Source: Methylophaga sp.
GTDB lineage: Bacteria; Pseudomonadota; Gammaproteobacteria; Nitrosococcales; Methylophagaceae
Length of the DNA: 40,253 nucleotides
Assembly (NCBI GenBank): GCA_002733105.1
Contig: NVUI01000007.1
Span: 51,093-91,345 of the forward strand
Direction: 5' to 3'
Positions within the stretch are counted from its first letter, which is position 1, and each line of letters begins with the position of its first letter. Position numbers and translations under genes: made by a program. Shown one piece after another: positions 25,989 to 36,000 of this stretch. The notes under the pieces are model-generated. The model was not told the DNA's origin, did no database searches, and worked only from the letters and a program-made list of their open reading frames with translations.

Positions 25989-27110
25989 TTATTGAATCGG
26001 GCCAGGTTTTTGTACTTGTTCCATCAAGTCATTATTCCACTCACCTTCTACTGATACATGAGCCGCTGCACCCAACATCACCGCTTCGATTAAGTTATGA
26101 TTAACATAAGCATAAAGCCCTGGTTGTTTGAAGGTATATAGTGCTGCACCTGCCTCACCACCTGCTATTGACCATGTTTCACGGTTAGTTGTAGGGACAT
26201 CATTAAATGAGCCACCTGTCCAAACTAAATCACCATGACCACCAATCAAATGAATACGAGTATCACGATTGGCTTGTGAATGAAGGAATAGAACTGTTTC
26301 CCCTACTTTGGCTGTCATTGCATTTTCGCCAGTCAAAGCACCGACTTTGCCACTAAAAGTAAGGTGTGTAGGGATTAAATTTTGCATGACAGCCATCGTG
26401 TCAGCCATCGCTAATGCTGGGCCATCATAACGTTTAAAATTGCCCTCTTTATCTTGAGGAATATACCAATCTTGCTCACCGATATAATAGGCTTTGTCGT
26501 ATGTCACCGTATTACCTTTTTCATCTTTTAAACCTTCACGTGGCAATATCATAATGGCACCATTCATACCAGAGACAACGTGGTAAGGAATCATCACACC
26601 GCCTGGTGCACAATGATAAACAAACACACCTGCTTTGGTTGCTTTAAATCGAAGTATGACTTGTTGTCCTGGTGCTACATTGGTTAAACCACCACCACCC
26701 AACGCCCCTGTTGATGCGTGGAAATCTATATTATGTACCATGGTATTTGTTTTAGGATTTTTTAACGTTAGTTCAACATAATCACCCACATGGGCAACAA
26801 TCATTGGACCTGGGTTTGAGCCTTCAAATGTCATTGCTTGCACAAATACACCCGGCGCAATTTCCATTTCTTTCTCGACGATTTCCATTGTCATTGCCAC
26901 AATTTGTGGGCCGCCTTTTGCCACTTGATCATGTTTTGGTAAAAATGGTGGCGCGACTAATGTTTGTGTCACACGCTCAAGTCCTTGGGCCTGTGATGCA
27001 ATGCCCACTTTACCAACCTCAAGTTCTTCACCAGAAAATGAAGGTATTGAAAATGCTACAAGAGATGCAGCAATGGTCATGCTTAACCCTAACTTTTTCA
27101 GATAGTTCAT
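25989..27110 (-). CDS. nirK: Copper-containing nitrite reductase
   Basis: [32 protein letters not shown] type 1/type 2 Cu ligands. Likely start [10 protein letters not shown] at 27110. Confidence 0.93.
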
Positions 27111-27190
27111 ATGTTTCTCCAATAATTTATTAATAAATGGCGCTCGGTTTAATACTGATACGAGTATCCACTCAGTTAACAAGGCCATCC

Positions 27191-27204
27191 TTGACATAAA
27201 TCAA
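27191..27204 (-). promoter_or_regulatory. FNR/DNR-type box upstream of nirK
   Basis: TTGACATAAATCAA on the plus strand (TTGATTTATGTCAA on minus), about 80 nt upstream of the nirK start. Confidence 0.7.
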
Positions 27205-27268
27205 GAGAAATAGGTTAAATAACCCATATTTGGGGCTAATATGGTTATTTAACATGAAGTAATGGTTT

Positions 27269-29104
27269 TTAGCGTGTTAACCGCAAATAAAGTAAAGGTA
27301 ATTTTGCTGGTAATTCAGCTGCATTTTTGATCAGAATATAAGCATTTTTGCCAAACAGATAAGGTAAGTAGTCCTCTGCTTTTTCATCAATGGTGACACA
27401 GAATGGTTGCAGGCCTTTTTTCTCGGCCTCAAGTATTGCTTGTCGAGTGTCCTCAATGCCATAACGCCCTTCATATTTATCTAAATCATTAGGTTTACCA
27501 TCGGTAATAATCAACAACAGCTTTTGAGTTGATGTTTCTTGTTCTAATAATTGACTAGCGTAACGTATAGCCGCCCCCATACGAGTGTAATAACCGGGAC
27601 GGACAGCATCAATATAACCTCGAATATCATCGTTATAACTATCATCAAATCCTTTGATATTAGAAAATCGAACATGACTGCGGTTACGTGATGAAAACCC
27701 ATGTAAGGCAAAACGATCGCCAGTGACACTCAATGCTTCTGAGAATAGATAAAGTGAATCACGGATAACATCAATGACTCTTGAACTATTATTAATATGA
27801 GCATCTGTCGACAACGATAAATCGGCAAGTAACATACAAGAGAGATCGCGAGTTTCATTGCGAAGATCCCGATAAACAGGCGTATCACCATTCACTACAC
27901 CATGTTTGCGATCAGTCAGAAAATTGATATAGTTTTCTAAATCCAGTTCAGTACCCTCCGTTTGTCGGCTTACCCAGTGACGTTGTGGTCGTAAAATTTC
28001 AAACTGACGCCGGATCCTTCTGGCTTGAACTTTTAGTCTTATCGGTAATTCAGTCGCCTCAGTATCACGTGATGTCATCGGTATAATGCGACAGTGACCC
28101 TTTTGTAGGATCTGTTTTTTATAGTCCCATTCATCAATAGGAATACCTTCACCTAATACGATGTCATCATATTGGCTGGCCGGTAAATCAAGATCCAATT
28201 TGATTTTACTTGCTGACGTTTCTGCATCTTGAGCAACAGTGATATTATCCATATCTTCTGCTGTTTGCATGGCATTATCATCGTCGTCATCGGTGCTGGT
28301 ACGATCTAATTTGCTGTATTCCCCCCAACTCCACAGACTTTCTAGACGAAAACTCATCAAACCATCATTACCTTCAGGCATATCGGTACGATTACCTTGT
28401 TTACGCTTTTGCTGTTTTTGCTGCTCTTTTTTAGTTTGCACTGCCTCAGGCATATCAGGATCCGCAGGAGGTTTATTTGTGCTAAATTCTAGCGGTGGTG
28501 GCGACGGATGTAACCAGAGTGGTACGGGCTGTGGTGGATGTTTGGCATATTGCAGATTAATTTTTTGCGTTGAATTTAATAATGCTGCACGAATAGCGTG
28601 TTCTTGCTTGGCTTCTCGCTGAGTTAAATCCCTTGGATCTGCACGCTGCTCTAAATGAGCATCCACAAGCTGTTGATAACGACTTTTCAACCCCGGCCAT
28701 ACTGCTAATGTTTTAGCCGTGCGATATTGATTTCGGCTGATCCAATCACCCTTTTCAACACTAATAACCGATAATGCCGTTAGCCATAAATAAAGATCAA
28801 GATTAAGCTGCCTAGAGGAAAATAAGGCAATATTTTCTGGTAATCGCAGTGTTTCTTCATCTCGCCACGCATATTGCGTTTTATCACCTATCCCGGCAAT
28901 CCGTTGTAACAATGAACGTCTGGCATTCACTGTAGAATCAGTGGCATTTTCAACACGTAAACCACCTTCACCACCCAAGGCACGAAAAAATATCCCTGCT
29001 GTGAGCCGAATATCATCCAGATAAACAATGGCTTCAGGAAATTGTTTATTGGCATGTTTGGTGATGAACCGATGCCATGTTGAACCGACTAATTCTTCTA
29101 GCAT
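27269..29104 (-). CDS. norD: NorD, nitric oxide reductase activation protein (VWA domain)
   Basis: MLLADLSLSTDAHI VWA/MIDAS motif; LLIITDGKPNDLDKYEGRYGIEDT; located with norQ and norCB. Confidence 0.9.
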   Translation of the reverse strand: MLEELVGSTWHRFITKHANKQFPEAIVYLDDIRLTAGIFFRALGGEGGLRVENATDSTVNARRSLLQRIAGIGDKTQYAWRDEETLRLPENIALFSSRQLNLDLYLWLTALSVISVEKGDWISRNQYRTAKTLAVWPGLKSRYQQLVDAHLEQRADPRDLTQREAKQEHAIRAALLNSTQKINLQYAKHPPQPVPLWLHPSPPPLEFSTNKPPADPDMPEAVQTKKEQQKQQKRKQGNRTDMPEGNDGLMSFRLESLWSWGEYSKLDRTSTDDDDDNAMQTAEDMDNITVAQDAETSASKIKLDLDLPASQYDDIVLGEGIPIDEWDYKKQILQKGHCRIIPMTSRDTEATELPIRLKVQARRIRRQFEILRPQRHWVSRQTEGTELDLENYINFLTDRKHGVVNGDTPVYRDLRNETRDLSCMLLADLSLSTDAHINNSSRVIDVIRDSLYLFSEALSVTGDRFALHGFSSRNRSHVRFSNIKGFDDSYNDDIRGYIDAVRPGYYTRMGAAIRYASQLLEQETSTQKLLLIITDGKPNDLDKYEGRYGIEDTRQAILEAEKKGLQPFCVTIDEKAEDYLPYLFGKNAYILIKNAAELPAKLPLLYLRLTR

Positions 29105-29107
29105 AAG

Positions 29108-29311
29108 TTATTTGCCTATGAAGGGTGACCAATCTGGTGGTAACCAAAACATCATAAAAAAGCAGAAAATAACGATGGCTATAAACCAGTAAATAAACGT
29201 TCTCTGCCGCTGCGTGCCGTGATTGGGAGGCAAGGGAATACCACAGCTATGGCAATATTCATCACTCTCTTTAACACCTCGATCACAGTGTTTGCATGTC
29301 AAATTATTCAT
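29108..29311 (-). CDS. Small zinc-ribbon membrane protein
   Basis: CKHCDRG...CHSCG then a TM segment; between norQ and norD. Confidence 0.65.
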   Translation of the reverse strand: MNNLTCKHCDRGVKESDEYCHSCGIPLPPNHGTQRQRTFIYWFIAIVIFCFFMMFWLPPDWSPFIGK

Positions 29312-29688
29312 TTTGAAAAAGAGCCTATTAAGGGACAGTTGTACTCCATTCCTTTAATTGCCCTAGAGAACCCAACGATACCCACAAATAAGAATAGCGG
29401 TACAACCAGCATAAAATAAACCTCTAGAGAAAATAATGCCGTTAACGATGCATAACCATCTGTTAACAATATAAAGGTATTAATCGCAATGAAAATAGTC
29501 AGGCTGATAGTACTGGCAATCAAGCTTTGTGTTAAATGTTTTTTGCCAACAGATGAAGTCTGTTGATATTTCATAAAATAAAGGGCCCATAATGCCAAAT
29601 AGAAGATACCCACAAACAGCAGATTAGCCATAAAAAAAGCTTCTGCAAAAGCAGCTGTATGATCATTTAGTGAAGCTCTCTGATCCAT
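29308..29688 (-). CDS. Small integral membrane protein in nor cluster
   Basis: 126 aa, several TM segments; overlaps the zinc-ribbon gene by 4 nt. Confidence 0.6.
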   Translation of the reverse strand: MDQRASLNDHTAAFAEAFFMANLLFVGIFYLALWALYFMKYQQTSSVGKKHLTQSLIASTISLTIFIAINTFILLTDGYASLTALFSLEVYFMLVVPLFLFVGIVGFSRAIKGMEYNCPLIGSFSK

Positions 29689-29699
29689 AAAAATATCCC

Positions 29700-30497
29700 T
29701 TAAGCTATCGCTATTTTTGCTTTAACCACTTCCATTAGTGCTGCTACTGTTTCTTCATCATCACTTAATGGTTCTATAATAGCTGCACGACAAGCGGCTA
29801 TCGGATCAAAACCTGACTTGATCAATGTTGCCGCATACACCAGCAATCGTGTTGATGCTGATTCTTCCAAATCATGATCTTTTAACACTCGTAATGCATG
29901 TGCTAATTCGATTAGCTGTGTAGCAATACCATGGCTGATATCGGTTTCTTGCTGGATAATTTTTGTTTCTGTTTCAAGATCAGGATAATCAAATCTCATG
30001 GCAACAAAACGCTGTCGAGTTGATGGTTTCATACCTTTTAATAAATTTTGATAACCCGGATTGTAAGACACCACCAGCATAAATTCTGCTGGTGCTTTTA
30101 GTATTTCACCGGTACGTTCTATCGGTAATATACGGCGGTCATCTGACAAGGGATGAAGGACTACCGTTGTGTCTTTACGTGCTTCTACAACCTCATCCAA
30201 ATAACAGATAGCGCCCTCGCGTACCGCTTTAGTTAAAGGCCCATCATGCCAATAAGTCTCACCATCACCAATTAAATGCCGTCCTACCAAATCGGCGGCA
30301 GTCAGATCATCATGGCAGGCAATTGTATATAATTTTCGACCTAATTTAGCGGCCATATGTTGAATAAATCGGGTTTTACCACATCCTGTCGGCCCCTTTA
30401 TTAATAAGGGCAATTGATTGTTATAAGCATGTTCAAATAACTCAATTTCATTATGCTGATCTTGATAATAAGGCAGGTCAATTGTTGTTTCATTCAT
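29700..30497 (-). CDS. norQ: NorQ/CbbQ MoxR-type AAA+ ATPase
   Basis: LIKGPTGCGKTRF Walker A, CYLDEVVEAR Walker B. Confidence 0.92.
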   Translation of the reverse strand: MNETTIDLPYYQDQHNEIELFEHAYNNQLPLLIKGPTGCGKTRFIQHMAAKLGRKLYTIACHDDLTAADLVGRHLIGDGETYWHDGPLTKAVREGAICYLDEVVEARKDTTVVLHPLSDDRRILPIERTGEILKAPAEFMLVVSYNPGYQNLLKGMKPSTRQRFVAMRFDYPDLETETKIIQQETDISHGIATQLIELAHALRVLKDHDLEESASTRLLVYAATLIKSGFDPIAACRAAIIEPLSDDEETVAALMEVVKAKIAIA

Positions 30498-30506
30498 GTT
30501 AAATTC

Positions 30507-30980
30507 CTACTTAGACGGTAATGAATGAGGATCAAAACCATTCATCACCGCAAACTGTGCTGTAATCATATCCATCGAGTTAACGTGATTATTGAACCAC
30601 TCAGGCCAAACGTTAAAAACATAGTCTGCAAGCATGCCAATATCCTTATCTAATTCCCATGTTGTTACTATTCTCGTCATTTCAGCCAAGGCATTGTCAT
30701 GTTCACCAGAATGTACCGGATACATTGGAAAATTAGTCTCTAACATTAGGCTGTTTTCTCGATCAAAGTGGGCTAGTGTATGTTGTAGCCAATTTCCTAA
30801 TAATGGCGTAATTTTGTTTGCTTCATTTTCCTTAGACGTCTCATTCTGTTGATACTCAGTAATTAATTCACCCAATTCTTGAACCATGTCAATTTCTTCA
30901 AAATGCGTATTATTCATAAAATCAATATCGACATGGGGGATACGTTCTTTATTCAAAATTATTTTAATGACTGACGTCAT
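30507..30980 (-). CDS. Hemerythrin-like protein
   Basis: From the internal start MTSVIKIIL: MNNTHFEEI, HTLAHFDREN, HSGEHDNAL, NNHVNSMD correspond to hemerythrin His/Glu/Asp ligands. Confidence 0.8.
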   Translation of the reverse strand: MTSVIKIILNKERIPHVDIDFMNNTHFEEIDMVQELGELITEYQQNETSKENEANKITPLLGNWLQHTLAHFDRENSLMLETNFPMYPVHSGEHDNALAEMTRIVTTWELDKDIGMLADYVFNVWPEWFNNHVNSMDMITAQFAVMNGFDPHSLPSK

Positions 30981-31243
30981 ATGGATGCCCCTATTAAATA
31001 TAGAATGGCAATGGCCAGGCAGACCATTGATAACCAGCCATACATGATGGCCCGCCATAAGAAAGACACACCTTTTAATTCCATAAAATCACGGATAATA
31101 AAAATGCCTTTTGTGTAGGCCGTTATGACTAAAATAACAACGGCAATACTACCGCTATGGCCAAATTCACCCATGGCATAACTAGATAATGTCAGTAACA
31201 TCATTGTTAGCCAAATTGTATGTATGTTGTAGTAGGATTTCAT
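30977..31243 (-). CDS. Cytochrome c oxidase subunit IV-like/NorF-like small membrane protein
   Basis: Three TM segments; ATGA overlap with the preceding NorE-like gene. Confidence 0.65.
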   Translation of the reverse strand: MKSYYNIHTIWLTMMLLTLSSYAMGEFGHSGSIAVVILVITAYTKGIFIIRDFMELKGVSFLWRAIMYGWLSMVCLAIAILYLIGASI

Positions 31244-31827
31244 CGAATTATGTACACCAATGGGAATAAAATGATCCAAACCAAATCAACCATATGCCAA
31301 TAAGAAGCACCTGTTTCTACCCCGGTGTGGTTCTGAGCATTGTATGCGCCTCGTTGCGCTTTTATCGCCACCGCTAATAAAATTATCATGCCTAAAATGA
31401 CATGCAAAACATGAAATAGTGTCAATGAAAGATAAAACATATAAAAAGTATTGGTGCTTAAACTAATGCCTGTTGCAAAAGTACCCACATATTCGATTGA
31501 CTTTAAAATCAGAAACCCTGCCCCTGCCGCAAGTGCTGCATAAAGCCAATAAATGCAACTTTTAACCTGGTTAAGCCTAATCGCATGTACTGCACGAATA
31601 ACAAAATAGCTAGAGCTAATTAATAGCAGTGTATTAGCCGCACCTAATTCACTATTAAGTGTTAACTGATACTGATTAAACAGTTCAATATTCTGTAAAC
31701 GGGTGACAGCATAGGAGATAAAGAACAAGCCAAACACAAGTAATTCCATAAAAATAAAAAACCAGATGGCTAAATCACCCGGTAATAATTTTGGCTCTGT
31801 TTCAATATATTCAGTCAATACGATCAT
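31240..31827 (-). CDS. norE: NorE-like cytochrome c oxidase subunit III family protein
   Basis: GDLAIWFFIFMELLVFGLFF and YWHMVDLVWIILFPLVYI COX3 signatures. Confidence 0.85.
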   Translation of the reverse strand: MIVLTEYIETEPKLLPGDLAIWFFIFMELLVFGLFFISYAVTRLQNIELFNQYQLTLNSELGAANTLLLISSSYFVIRAVHAIRLNQVKSCIYWLYAALAAGAGFLILKSIEYVGTFATGISLSTNTFYMFYLSLTLFHVLHVILGMIILLAVAIKAQRGAYNAQNHTGVETGASYWHMVDLVWIILFPLVYIIR

Positions 31828-31879
31828 CTTATTTCAATAAATTAAGTGTCTATATTGAAGCTTTAGATTGTTTTATGCC

Positions 31880-31893
31880 TTGATACGTATCAA
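31880..31893. promoter_or_regulatory. FNR/DNR-type box upstream of norE operon
   Basis: Perfect palindrome TTGATACGTATCAA about 53 nt upstream of the norE start. Confidence 0.75.
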
Positions 31894-31894
31894 G

Positions 31895-32257
31895 TCATTT
31901 TGATAAGAAAGTCTTTTTTAATTTCTCACCAGTCCAAGATCGGGTGAGTGTCCATGTTGCAAACAAGATAAACATGGCGTGAACAATCACAAAATAAGTA
32001 ATCACATAAACCCAAGTCCATGGTGAATCAAAACCACCCAGAAGAATCATCAGAGCACTCACTAGTAGCAATGCTACAGCTGCCACTAAATTGGTCTTTA
32101 TACCGACAATTACATAATATCGATCAATCATATTTGGGCTCGTTTTCTTATAGAGCAGTAACAAGAAAATAAAACTGATGACGGGGAAAACCGTCAGATT
32201 TAATAATGAAACTAAAGCAGCTGTTGATGCCCGTTTTAACTGTAATTTATCTGCCAT
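31895..32257 (-). CDS. Hypothetical membrane protein downstream of norB
   Basis: About 120 aa, three TM segments; start MADKLQLKR. Confidence 0.6.
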   Translation of the reverse strand: MADKLQLKRASTAALVSLLNLTVFPVISFIFLLLLYKKTSPNMIDRYYVIVGIKTNLVAAVALLLVSALMILLGGFDSPWTWVYVITYFVIVHAMFILFATWTLTRSWTGEKLKKTFLSK

Positions 32258-32334
32258 CACTTCTCCTATTCCCAAGCAAAGATACCGCCATTATAGGCGG
32301 TATCTTTCTAACACTATTGTCATCAAACAATAGT

Positions 32335-33723
<1,389 letters not shown>

Positions 33724-33730
33724 CTACCCC

Positions 33731-34168
33731 TTAACCTTGAATATTTGGTGGCCAGTCTCTGGCAGTCTTAACGCCATCAACATATTTGAGAAACTGAGCA
33801 AGTGCTTCCAATTGTTCGTCTGTTAAATTGAACTGCGGCATACTGCGTCGGCCAGGGATCCCATCTACAGGACGATATTTGATAAACGCTTTAATCGCTT
33901 CAGTACTCTCACCAAAACGGGTATAGACATTGCCAAGCTCGGGTGCAAAATAAGCCCCCTCGCCTAGCAAGGTATGGCAACCAATACAGTTGTTGATTTC
34001 CCACAACCGTTTTCCTGCTGCAACTTGTTCGGTCAAATTTTCTGAATTATCCGTTTTGGGTAAACTTTTAACGGTATCAACAGTCAAACCAATAAGTACT
34101 AGGAAGAAGAAGACAGCCCCCCCATAGTAAATATTGCGGGCCATACCCTTTGTAAAGGTTTCTCTCAT
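33731..34168 (-). CDS. norC: Nitric oxide reductase cytochrome c subunit
   Basis: NNCIGCHTLLGEGAYFAPELG heme-binding site; adjacent to norB. Confidence 0.95.
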   Translation of the reverse strand: MRETFTKGMARNIYYGGAVFFFLVLIGLTVDTVKSLPKTDNSENLTEQVAAGKRLWEINNCIGCHTLLGEGAYFAPELGNVYTRFGESTEAIKAFIKYRPVDGIPGRRSMPQFNLTDEQLEALAQFLKYVDGVKTARDWPPNIQG

Positions 34169-34298: not shown

Positions 34299-35018
34299 TT
34301 ATCCCTCAAGCGAAATTAATTGACGTAGCCTTTCAATATCAATTAATTCAACCTGTGGGCCATCCAATTTAATTAATCCTTGTTTAGAAAGATTTTTTAA
34401 TGTTCTAGATAGTGTTTCAGGCTTAATAGATAGACGTGAAGCAATAACATGTTTAGGTGCCACCAGACTCACACCCGTACGGTCATTATTATCTGTTGGA
34501 ATATGGCTTAATAGGTAATCAACTAAACGAAAGGTGGCATTGTGTAGTGTTAATCTATCAACCTCGTTCACCATCCAATGCAGTCTTTGACTCAAATTCC
34601 CCAGCAAATTAATACATAAATCATTTGATGTATTCAGTAATTTTAAATAGGTTTTCGCATGAATACCCACCACGACTGATGGTGATATTGTGATCGCAGA
34701 AACAGGATAACGAGACCCGCCAAAAAAAAGAACAGCTTCGGCAAAGGTCTGGCCAGAGCGAATGATCTCAATGACTTTTTCATCACCACTGGGGGCCAAC
34801 CGTTGTAGTTTAATACTTCCTGAAATAAGCAAATAGATGTCAGTAAATACGGCACCTCGCTCAAAAAGAGTGCCATTTTCAGAAAGTTGTACTGCATGTG
34901 ACGCCTGCACAACCTCATCAAATTGCTCAGGCTCTAGTGGCTGCAACAGAACACATTGCCGCATCATATTTAAAATAGTGTCATTTAACTCAATACTTTC
35001 TATTGTAGAAAATTTCAT
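34299..35018 (-). CDS. Crp/Fnr-family regulator (DNR-like)
   Basis: cNMP-binding-like domain and HTH (IASRLSIKPETLSRTLKNLSKQGLI); lacks an FNR N-terminal Cys cluster; adjacent to the nor genes. Confidence 0.85.
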   Translation of the reverse strand: MKFSTIESIELNDTILNMMRQCVLLQPLEPEQFDEVVQASHAVQLSENGTLFERGAVFTDIYLLISGSIKLQRLAPSGDEKVIEIIRSGQTFAEAVLFFGGSRYPVSAITISPSVVVGIHAKTYLKLLNTSNDLCINLLGNLSQRLHWMVNEVDRLTLHNATFRLVDYLLSHIPTDNNDRTGVSLVAPKHVIASRLSIKPETLSRTLKNLSKQGLIKLDGPQVELIDIERLRQLISLEG

Positions 35019-35281
35019 AAGTTTTATGACTCACTCTGAGATGGTTAATTAAGGCTAGACCGATGAATATTACCACTATTTTAATGGTTGCTTTTATTAA
35101 TATTGGTTTTAAAAACAAGCTATATATCTTATTTAGAATCATAAATCGACTAAATCTCAAATTTTCTGGGCAATACCTTGTAATCGTAATTTTCGATTAC
35201 TATAATTAAAATATCTTGTTTTACTAATGATTAATTATGGCCGACAATCATCATTTATCGACTCTTAACTAGGAATTAATA

Positions 35282-35800
35282 ATGACAAATCAAGTACCAG
35301 ACATTACATTTAAAACTCGAGTTCGTGATGAAAGCATAGATGGAGATAATCCTTTCCGCTGGCAGGATGTGACAACTAACGATATATTTAAAGGAAAAAG
35401 TATTGTCGTTCTGGCTTTGCCTGGTGCATTCACCCCGACTTGTTCAAGTACACATCTTCCTGGTTTTGAAGCTAAATATGATGAATTTAAAGCAAAAGGT
35501 ATAGATGAAATATATTGCTTGAGTGTTAACGATGCTTTTACCATGTTCCAATGGTCTAAAAACCTAGGGGTGGAAAAAGTAAAAATGCTCCCTGATGGTA
35601 ATGCTGACTTCACCCGGTTAATGGGCATGTTAGTCAAAAAGGAAAACCTAGGTTTTGGTGACCGTACCTGGCGTTATTCAATGCATGTGGTGGATGGTGA
35701 GATCAAACAACTATTTGCTGAGCCGGGTTTAATGGATAACTGCCCAGATGATCCTTTCACATGTAGTGATGCTGATACGATGCTGAACTACTTAGTTTAA
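35282..35800 (+). CDS. Peroxiredoxin (Prx5 type)
   Basis: LPGAFTPTCSSTHLPGF active site. Confidence 0.9.
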   Translation: MTNQVPDITFKTRVRDESIDGDNPFRWQDVTTNDIFKGKSIVVLALPGAFTPTCSSTHLPGFEAKYDEFKAKGIDEIYCLSVNDAFTMFQWSKNLGVEKVKMLPDGNADFTRLMGMLVKKENLGFGDRTWRYSMHVVDGEIKQLFAEPGLMDNCPDDPFTCSDADTMLNYLV

Positions 35801-35822
35801 TAATTAAGTCAGTATTATAAAA

Positions 35823-35855
35823 GGCATCAGGCGATTTAGTCTGGTGCTTTTTTAA
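35823..35855 (+). terminator. Rho-independent terminator after peroxiredoxin
   Basis: GCATCAG...CTGGTGC stem followed by a T-run. Confidence 0.65.
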
Positions 35856-35875
35856 TTTGGATTAGAGAATTTATT

Positions 35876-35947
35876 ATGTGGACTACACCAGAATATTCAG
35901 ACATTCGTTTCGGTTTCGAAGTCACAATGTACATCTGTAACCGTTAA
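35876..35947 (+). CDS. pqqA: PqqA, coenzyme PQQ precursor peptide (orphan copy)
   Basis: ATG...TAA encodes [23 protein letters not shown], matching the PqqA consensus with the conserved EVTMY (Glu/Tyr cross-link residues). Not in the supplied ORF track. Confidence 0.92.
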
Positions 35948-35964: not shown

Positions 35965-36000
35965 AAAAGCCCCAGTATCGTGAGATATTGGGGCTTTTTT
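35965..36000. terminator. Rho-independent terminator after pqqA, possibly bidirectional
   Basis: AAAAGCCCCAGTATC-GTGA-GATATTGGGGCTTTTTT. Confidence 0.85.

Follow-up and report, generated by a model that had tools for sequence, protein, structure and literature searches.

A spare pqqA gene outside the family-wide PQQ box lies behind a peroxiredoxin gene with an OxyR-type operator in a Methylophaga genome

Supernumerary genes for PqqA, the precursor peptide of PQQ, are well documented in methylotrophs. Genomes of Methylophilaceae hold 3-12 pqqA copies (PMC4109929), Methylovorus has five that are unequally expressed (PMC9851590), and M. extorquens carries the orphans pqqA2 and pqqA3 (PMC11317620). 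The availability of PqqA can be rate-determining, according to Ge 2015 as cited in PMC11317620. In Pseudomonas, expression of pqq has been connected with the LuxR-type response regulator AgmR/ErbR (PMC12997753). It is puzzling that methylotrophs should retain as many as twelve precursor genes alongside only one set of processing enzymes.

The gene described here lies in a 40,253-nt stretch (the window) of a 131-kb contig, C15, from a metagenome-assembled Methylophaga genome (2.06 Mb, 82.5% complete). With a probability of roughly 0.6, it would be a functional additional precursor gene, weakly coupled in its expression to the peroxide-responsive promoter of the preceding peroxiredoxin gene, prx. 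The features on which the argument turns are the following.

34299-35018, minus strand: Crp/Fnr-family regulator gene (fnr), divergent from prx and heading norC-norB; Crp/Fnr-like matches below equivalog cut-offs
35183-35219, plus strand: OxyR-type operator of the prx promoter, ATCG-N7-CGAT-N7-ATTA-N7-TTGT; matrix score 33.9 bits
35219-35248, plus strand: predicted prx promoter, -35 TTTTAC (35219-35224) and -10 GACAAT (35243-35248), spacing 18, from alignment with relatives' prx promoters
35282-35800, plus strand: peroxiredoxin gene (prx), Prx5/Redoxin type; Pfam Redoxin 84.7 bits
35819-35852, plus strand: terminator-like hairpin with T-run; -18.9 kcal/mol, z=-6.3
35864-35868, plus strand: Shine-Dalgarno-like AGAGA, 7 nt 5' of the pqqA ATG
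35876-35947, plus strand: pqqA, 23-residue PQQ precursor peptide; TIGR02107 and PF08042 profile matches, purifying selection
35965-35998, plus strand: intrinsic terminator of pqqA, 15-pair stem; -26.8 kcal/mol with tail, z=-7.2

The reading frame at 35876-35947 is a genuine PqqA gene. Two independent profile libraries agree on this assignment, with a full-length match to the NCBIfam equivalog TIGR02107 (49.8 bits, E=2e-13, cut-off 20) and a match to Pfam PF08042 (43.4 bits, E=3e-11, cut-off 21.1), and the Glu15-x-x-x-Tyr19 pair from which PQQ derives is kept (FEVTMY). The original prediction had proposed a 23-codon PqqA precursor gene that has its own strong terminator and follows a peroxiredoxin; the translation is exact, both profiles score above their cut-offs, and the terminator and the Redoxin-family gene are where they were said to be. 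The signals around the gene are also typical of its kind: AGAG(G) precedes the ATG in many pqqA copies of relatives, and most of those copies have a terminator-like hairpin 3' of the gene. Related genomes contain 88 genes for a 23-residue PqqA, with 63 distinct coding sequences that encode only 12 peptides. Comparison of the window gene with other copies gives a mean pS of 0.43 and a mean pN of 0.036, values by which it is under strong purifying selection. The sole private feature of its peptide is Ile10 (M10I), the other 23-residue copies having Met10. The Cys near the C-terminus, which had been thought unusual, is the norm in Methylophagaceae PqqA, where nearly all of the 88 copies end in ICNR.

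No pqqB-E was found across the window, so the label of orphan given to the gene at the outset fits its surroundings; it does not fit the genome, in which contig C2 carries a complete operon with pqqA directly before pqqBCDE. Curated models on C2 score 410 bits for pqqB, 365 for pqqC, 92-99 for pqqD and 575 for pqqE, which rules out a true orphan lacking a pathway. Three intact pqqA genes are present in all, the window copy on C15, a lone copy on C18 and the operon copy on C2, and the window gene is thus an additional precursor copy, as had been proposed. A fourth pqqA frame on C2, just upstream of the operon copy (L005 1671-1744), is frameshifted, through either real decay or an assembly error. 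The expected use of PQQ is likewise borne out by the complete pqqABCDE on C2 and by a PQQ-dependent alcohol dehydrogenase on C21 (558 bits; L193 5711-7468), a likely PQQ user; a partial one lies on C7. The C21 enzyme gene is followed by that of a cytochrome c-like protein, and its product has a DYD motif, as in lanthanide-type enzymes. Since the same genome also encodes PqqBCDE and a PQQ dehydrogenase, the window pqqA is spare rather than pathway-less. Because PqqE and PqqD are encoded on C2, its peptide should feed the same single PQQ pathway: these proteins would cross-link Glu15 and Tyr19 of the window PqqA, with processing to PQQ thereafter.

What sets the window copy apart is its upstream region. 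Among Methylophagaceae pqqA copies with at least 150 bp of upstream sequence (n=93), 86 are preceded by the palindrome TMAGGAAAATCCTGA (four mismatches at most), 98-139 bp before the ATG, as against 3.7% of first-order Markov shuffles that contain it within four mismatches. The box precedes operon copies, tandem copies and distant orphans alike, and both other intact pqqA genes of the source genome, on C18 (L004) and C2 (L005), have it. Upstream of the window pqqA, the best match within 170 bp has 7 mismatches, which places this copy outside the PQQ-box regulon by sequence, and the box is also missing upstream of the window prx.

The palindrome is likely the operator of a family-wide PQQ regulon. 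Across 12 genomes, the box occurs 44 times with no more than one mismatch, and 28 of these occurrences have a pqqA within 300 bp. The recurring exception is a box 88-111 bp before a gene for a TonB-dependent receptor in three genomes including the source genome (L198, at G000 C12:149476; L274; L283). Among PDB structures, this receptor is closest to YncD and the pyrroloquinoline quinone transporter, only slightly ahead of BtuB, which makes it a candidate PQQ importer of the same regulon. In many relatives, a boxed pqqA is immediately preceded by genes for a histidine kinase and a response regulator of the LuxR type, and we infer that this pair is the putative reader of the box. The source genome (82.5% complete) yielded no counterpart of the LuxR regulator that adjoins pqqA in relatives (best match 43%). 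The literature searched, partly by title, yielded no bacterial promoter report or matching binding motif for the box string. Divergent boxed pqqA genes (e.g., MKNWIDPEYCDVRLGFEVTAYVHTR) occur at four loci (L137, L150, L174 and L178), three of which have their own pqqD and pqqE copies (pqqADE).

The window gene stands instead behind a promoter of another type. The best PDB match of the prx product is HI0572 (1nm3). The OxyR operator consensus is ATAG-N7-CTAT-N7-ATAG-N7-CTAT. In the window, four tetramers spaced by N7 precede the -35 of prx, and in Cycloclasticus and further relatives the promoters of prx orthologues show the canonical ATAG-N7-CTAT at this position. The matrix used for scoring drew on 31 prx promoters and left out that of the window; none of 3000 Markov shuffles scored as well as the window site, and the runner-up across the window reaches 10.0 bits. 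The promoter assigned to prx is probable, with a weak -10. An OxyR homologue encoded on C17 scores 235 bits against the OxyR model, below the cut-off of 329 although this is its best match among all models; it has GHC-N8-C cysteines, 9 residues apart, in GHCLREHALSAC, a spacing that we take to correspond to that of E. coli Cys199/Cys208. Control by Fnr or NO through the divergent fnr-norCB genes, suggested by their position, appears less likely on two grounds, the OxyR spacing of the operator and the lack of a prx neighbour for fnr in relatives. The adjoining region of the window, 25989-34168, is a denitrification island with a nirK-like copper nitrite reductase gene and nor genes, alongside the Crp/Fnr regulator; its norB, norC and norQ/norD-like genes were named by eye.

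Transcription from prx into pqqA would have to pass the hairpin at 35819-35852. No sigma-70 promoter for pqqA is recognisable in the few bases between this hairpin and the ATG, and the idea that the gene has one of its own was dropped. Because the terminator-like hairpin intervenes, pqqA would be reached only by partial read-through, as would gor on C2, where the counterpart hairpin between prx and gor has -18.6 kcal/mol. With a hairpin of -18.9 kcal/mol and no recognisable promoter before the ATG, it may be that hardly any pqqA is expressed. As regards the initial suggestion that expression of this copy may set PQQ output, the absence of the family pqqA promoter and the hairpin in front make support from the locus for high expression weak. 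These same features, the missing box and the terminator in front, would be expected of a decaying remnant, that is, a pqqA duplicate severed from its promoter, intact only since the event is recent and effectively silent. The unique M10I change points the same way, as does the frameshifted sibling in the same genome, which indicates that pqqA copies do decay and so counts against a functional reading. The window and C2 copies, however, differ at five synonymous sites and one conservative nonsynonymous site, a mostly synonymous pattern that argues for divergence under constraint, and the Shine-Dalgarno sequence and terminator of pqqA are intact. We therefore regard decay as improbable. A working extra gene would be expressed from the prx transcript, in second place, by partial read-through of the prx hairpin; the modest, peroxide-linked supply of precursor that resulted would replace the regulated supply of the boxed copies.

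The origin of this arrangement can be approached through synteny. In relatives the genes run (HK-RR)-pqqA-prx-gor-pqqA, with pqqBCDE next in some of them, and in the window pqqA stands where gor stands after prx in relatives and on C2. Contig C2 itself begins inside a prx, its first 99 bases being identical to the 3' coding end of the window prx (before the final difference), and continues through gor to pqqBCDE, so that the window prx is a second copy. On the other side, 16 fnr orthologue loci in the genus (~70-80% identity) adjoin norC-norB in nearly all cases, and none of these 16 other loci has prx or pqqA beside fnr; as judged from these loci, the placement of prx-pqqA beside fnr-norCB is unique in the genus sample. 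An overlap of exactly 99 bases suggests a branch in the assembly graph, so that a misjoin or a mixture of strains is possible. On that account, a prx of the pqq locus, or one from another strain, was joined to the norCB contig, and both the k-mer-like length of the overlap and the absence of the fnr-prx-pqqA order from every relative would follow. Such an artefact is nevertheless very improbable: the hairpin and the genes differ beyond the shared 99 bases, so that both continuations are real; a single 131-kb contig holds fnr, prx and pqqA; and the pqqA-terminator cassette is not at the C2 junction. On the favoured reading, the working extra copy would have arisen when a duplicate of prx came to lie near norCB together with a pqqA cassette at the gor position.

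Orphan pqqA genes near peroxide-scavenging genes occur elsewhere in the family. By raw count, this holds for 4 of roughly 28 distinct orphan contexts (26 groups, one merged group having been split by eye): the window, the prx-gor context, a single genus with ahpC-ahpF, and a copy beside a DyP peroxidase gene. In genus g3 (L131, L159 and L169), the orphan lies directly before ahpC-ahpF (AhpC, 341 bits), with OxyR-like sites of 23.5-29.8 bits between pqqA and ahpC. The DyP-linked pqqA, on the minus strand at the start of L155, has the peroxidase gene on one side and an OxyR-like site (30.8 bits) on the other. Two orphans that lack the box and neighbour cysM (copies 52 and 54) have their own OxyR-like sites of 8.0 and 12.7 bits, against a shuffle background with a 99.9% quantile of 7.4 bits and a highest value of 12.6. 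A site at copy 43 (G032), at -0.5 bits, is suggestive at most and was rejected. Across the family, the majority of orphan context groups lack an adjacent peroxide gene, in keeping with the possibility that the window gene is an ordinary redundant gene-dosage copy, with low constitutive expression and a place behind prx that has no regulatory meaning; the generality of multi-copy pqqA in methylotrophs (PMC4109929, PMC9851590) agrees with this as well. Against a dosage copy stand the lack of a box found in 86 of 93 copies and the strong OxyR-type site before the upstream prx, and we consider this explanation unlikely, if less so than decay.

A broader reading, offered tentatively from sequence evidence and with less than even confidence, is that pqqA in Methylophagaceae may fall under two separate controls, the PQQ-regulon box and, for a minority including the window copy, OxyR-type peroxide control. 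The boxed class would be tied to the LuxR-type two-component system and would share its control with the PqqU-like TonB receptor. The minority class would comprise prx-pqqA, the cysM-linked copies with OxyR-like sites, and the copies that abut ahpCF or the DyP peroxidase gene. If this were so, PQQ precursor supply would be part of the peroxide response, perhaps for the reason that PqqC releases H2O2 or that PQQ acts as an antioxidant. The literature searched on pqqA with OxyR, mostly judged by title, showed no link between the two. As nearly all copies look co-regulated, the family-wide box offers a concrete handle on the multi-copy puzzle, and since a handful of copies, that of the window among them, depart from the box rule and lie with peroxide genes, whether PQQ supply is connected with peroxide stress can be tested in cultured Methylophaga.

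Compared with described systems, the window peptide shares with the PqqA family (PF08042/TIGR02107) the E-x-x-x-Y core and a length of 23 residues and differs by Ile10. The OxyR-regulated prx-gor operon has in common with the window the OxyR-type operator and the hairpin after prx, but the second gene here is pqqA, not gor. The AgmR/ErbR PQQ regulon has a parallel in the histidine kinase-LuxR pair upstream of pqqA in relatives, and by its sequence the window copy stands outside that arrangement. Like the methylotroph orphans of Methylovorus (pqqA3-5), Methylophilaceae and M. extorquens, the window copy is solitary and lies away from a single pqqBCDE; unlike the published orphans it sits behind a peroxiredoxin gene, the absence of the box being a comparison with Methylophagaceae copies only. 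The window pqqA is thus of a documented kind, spare pqqA copies being known in methylotrophs.
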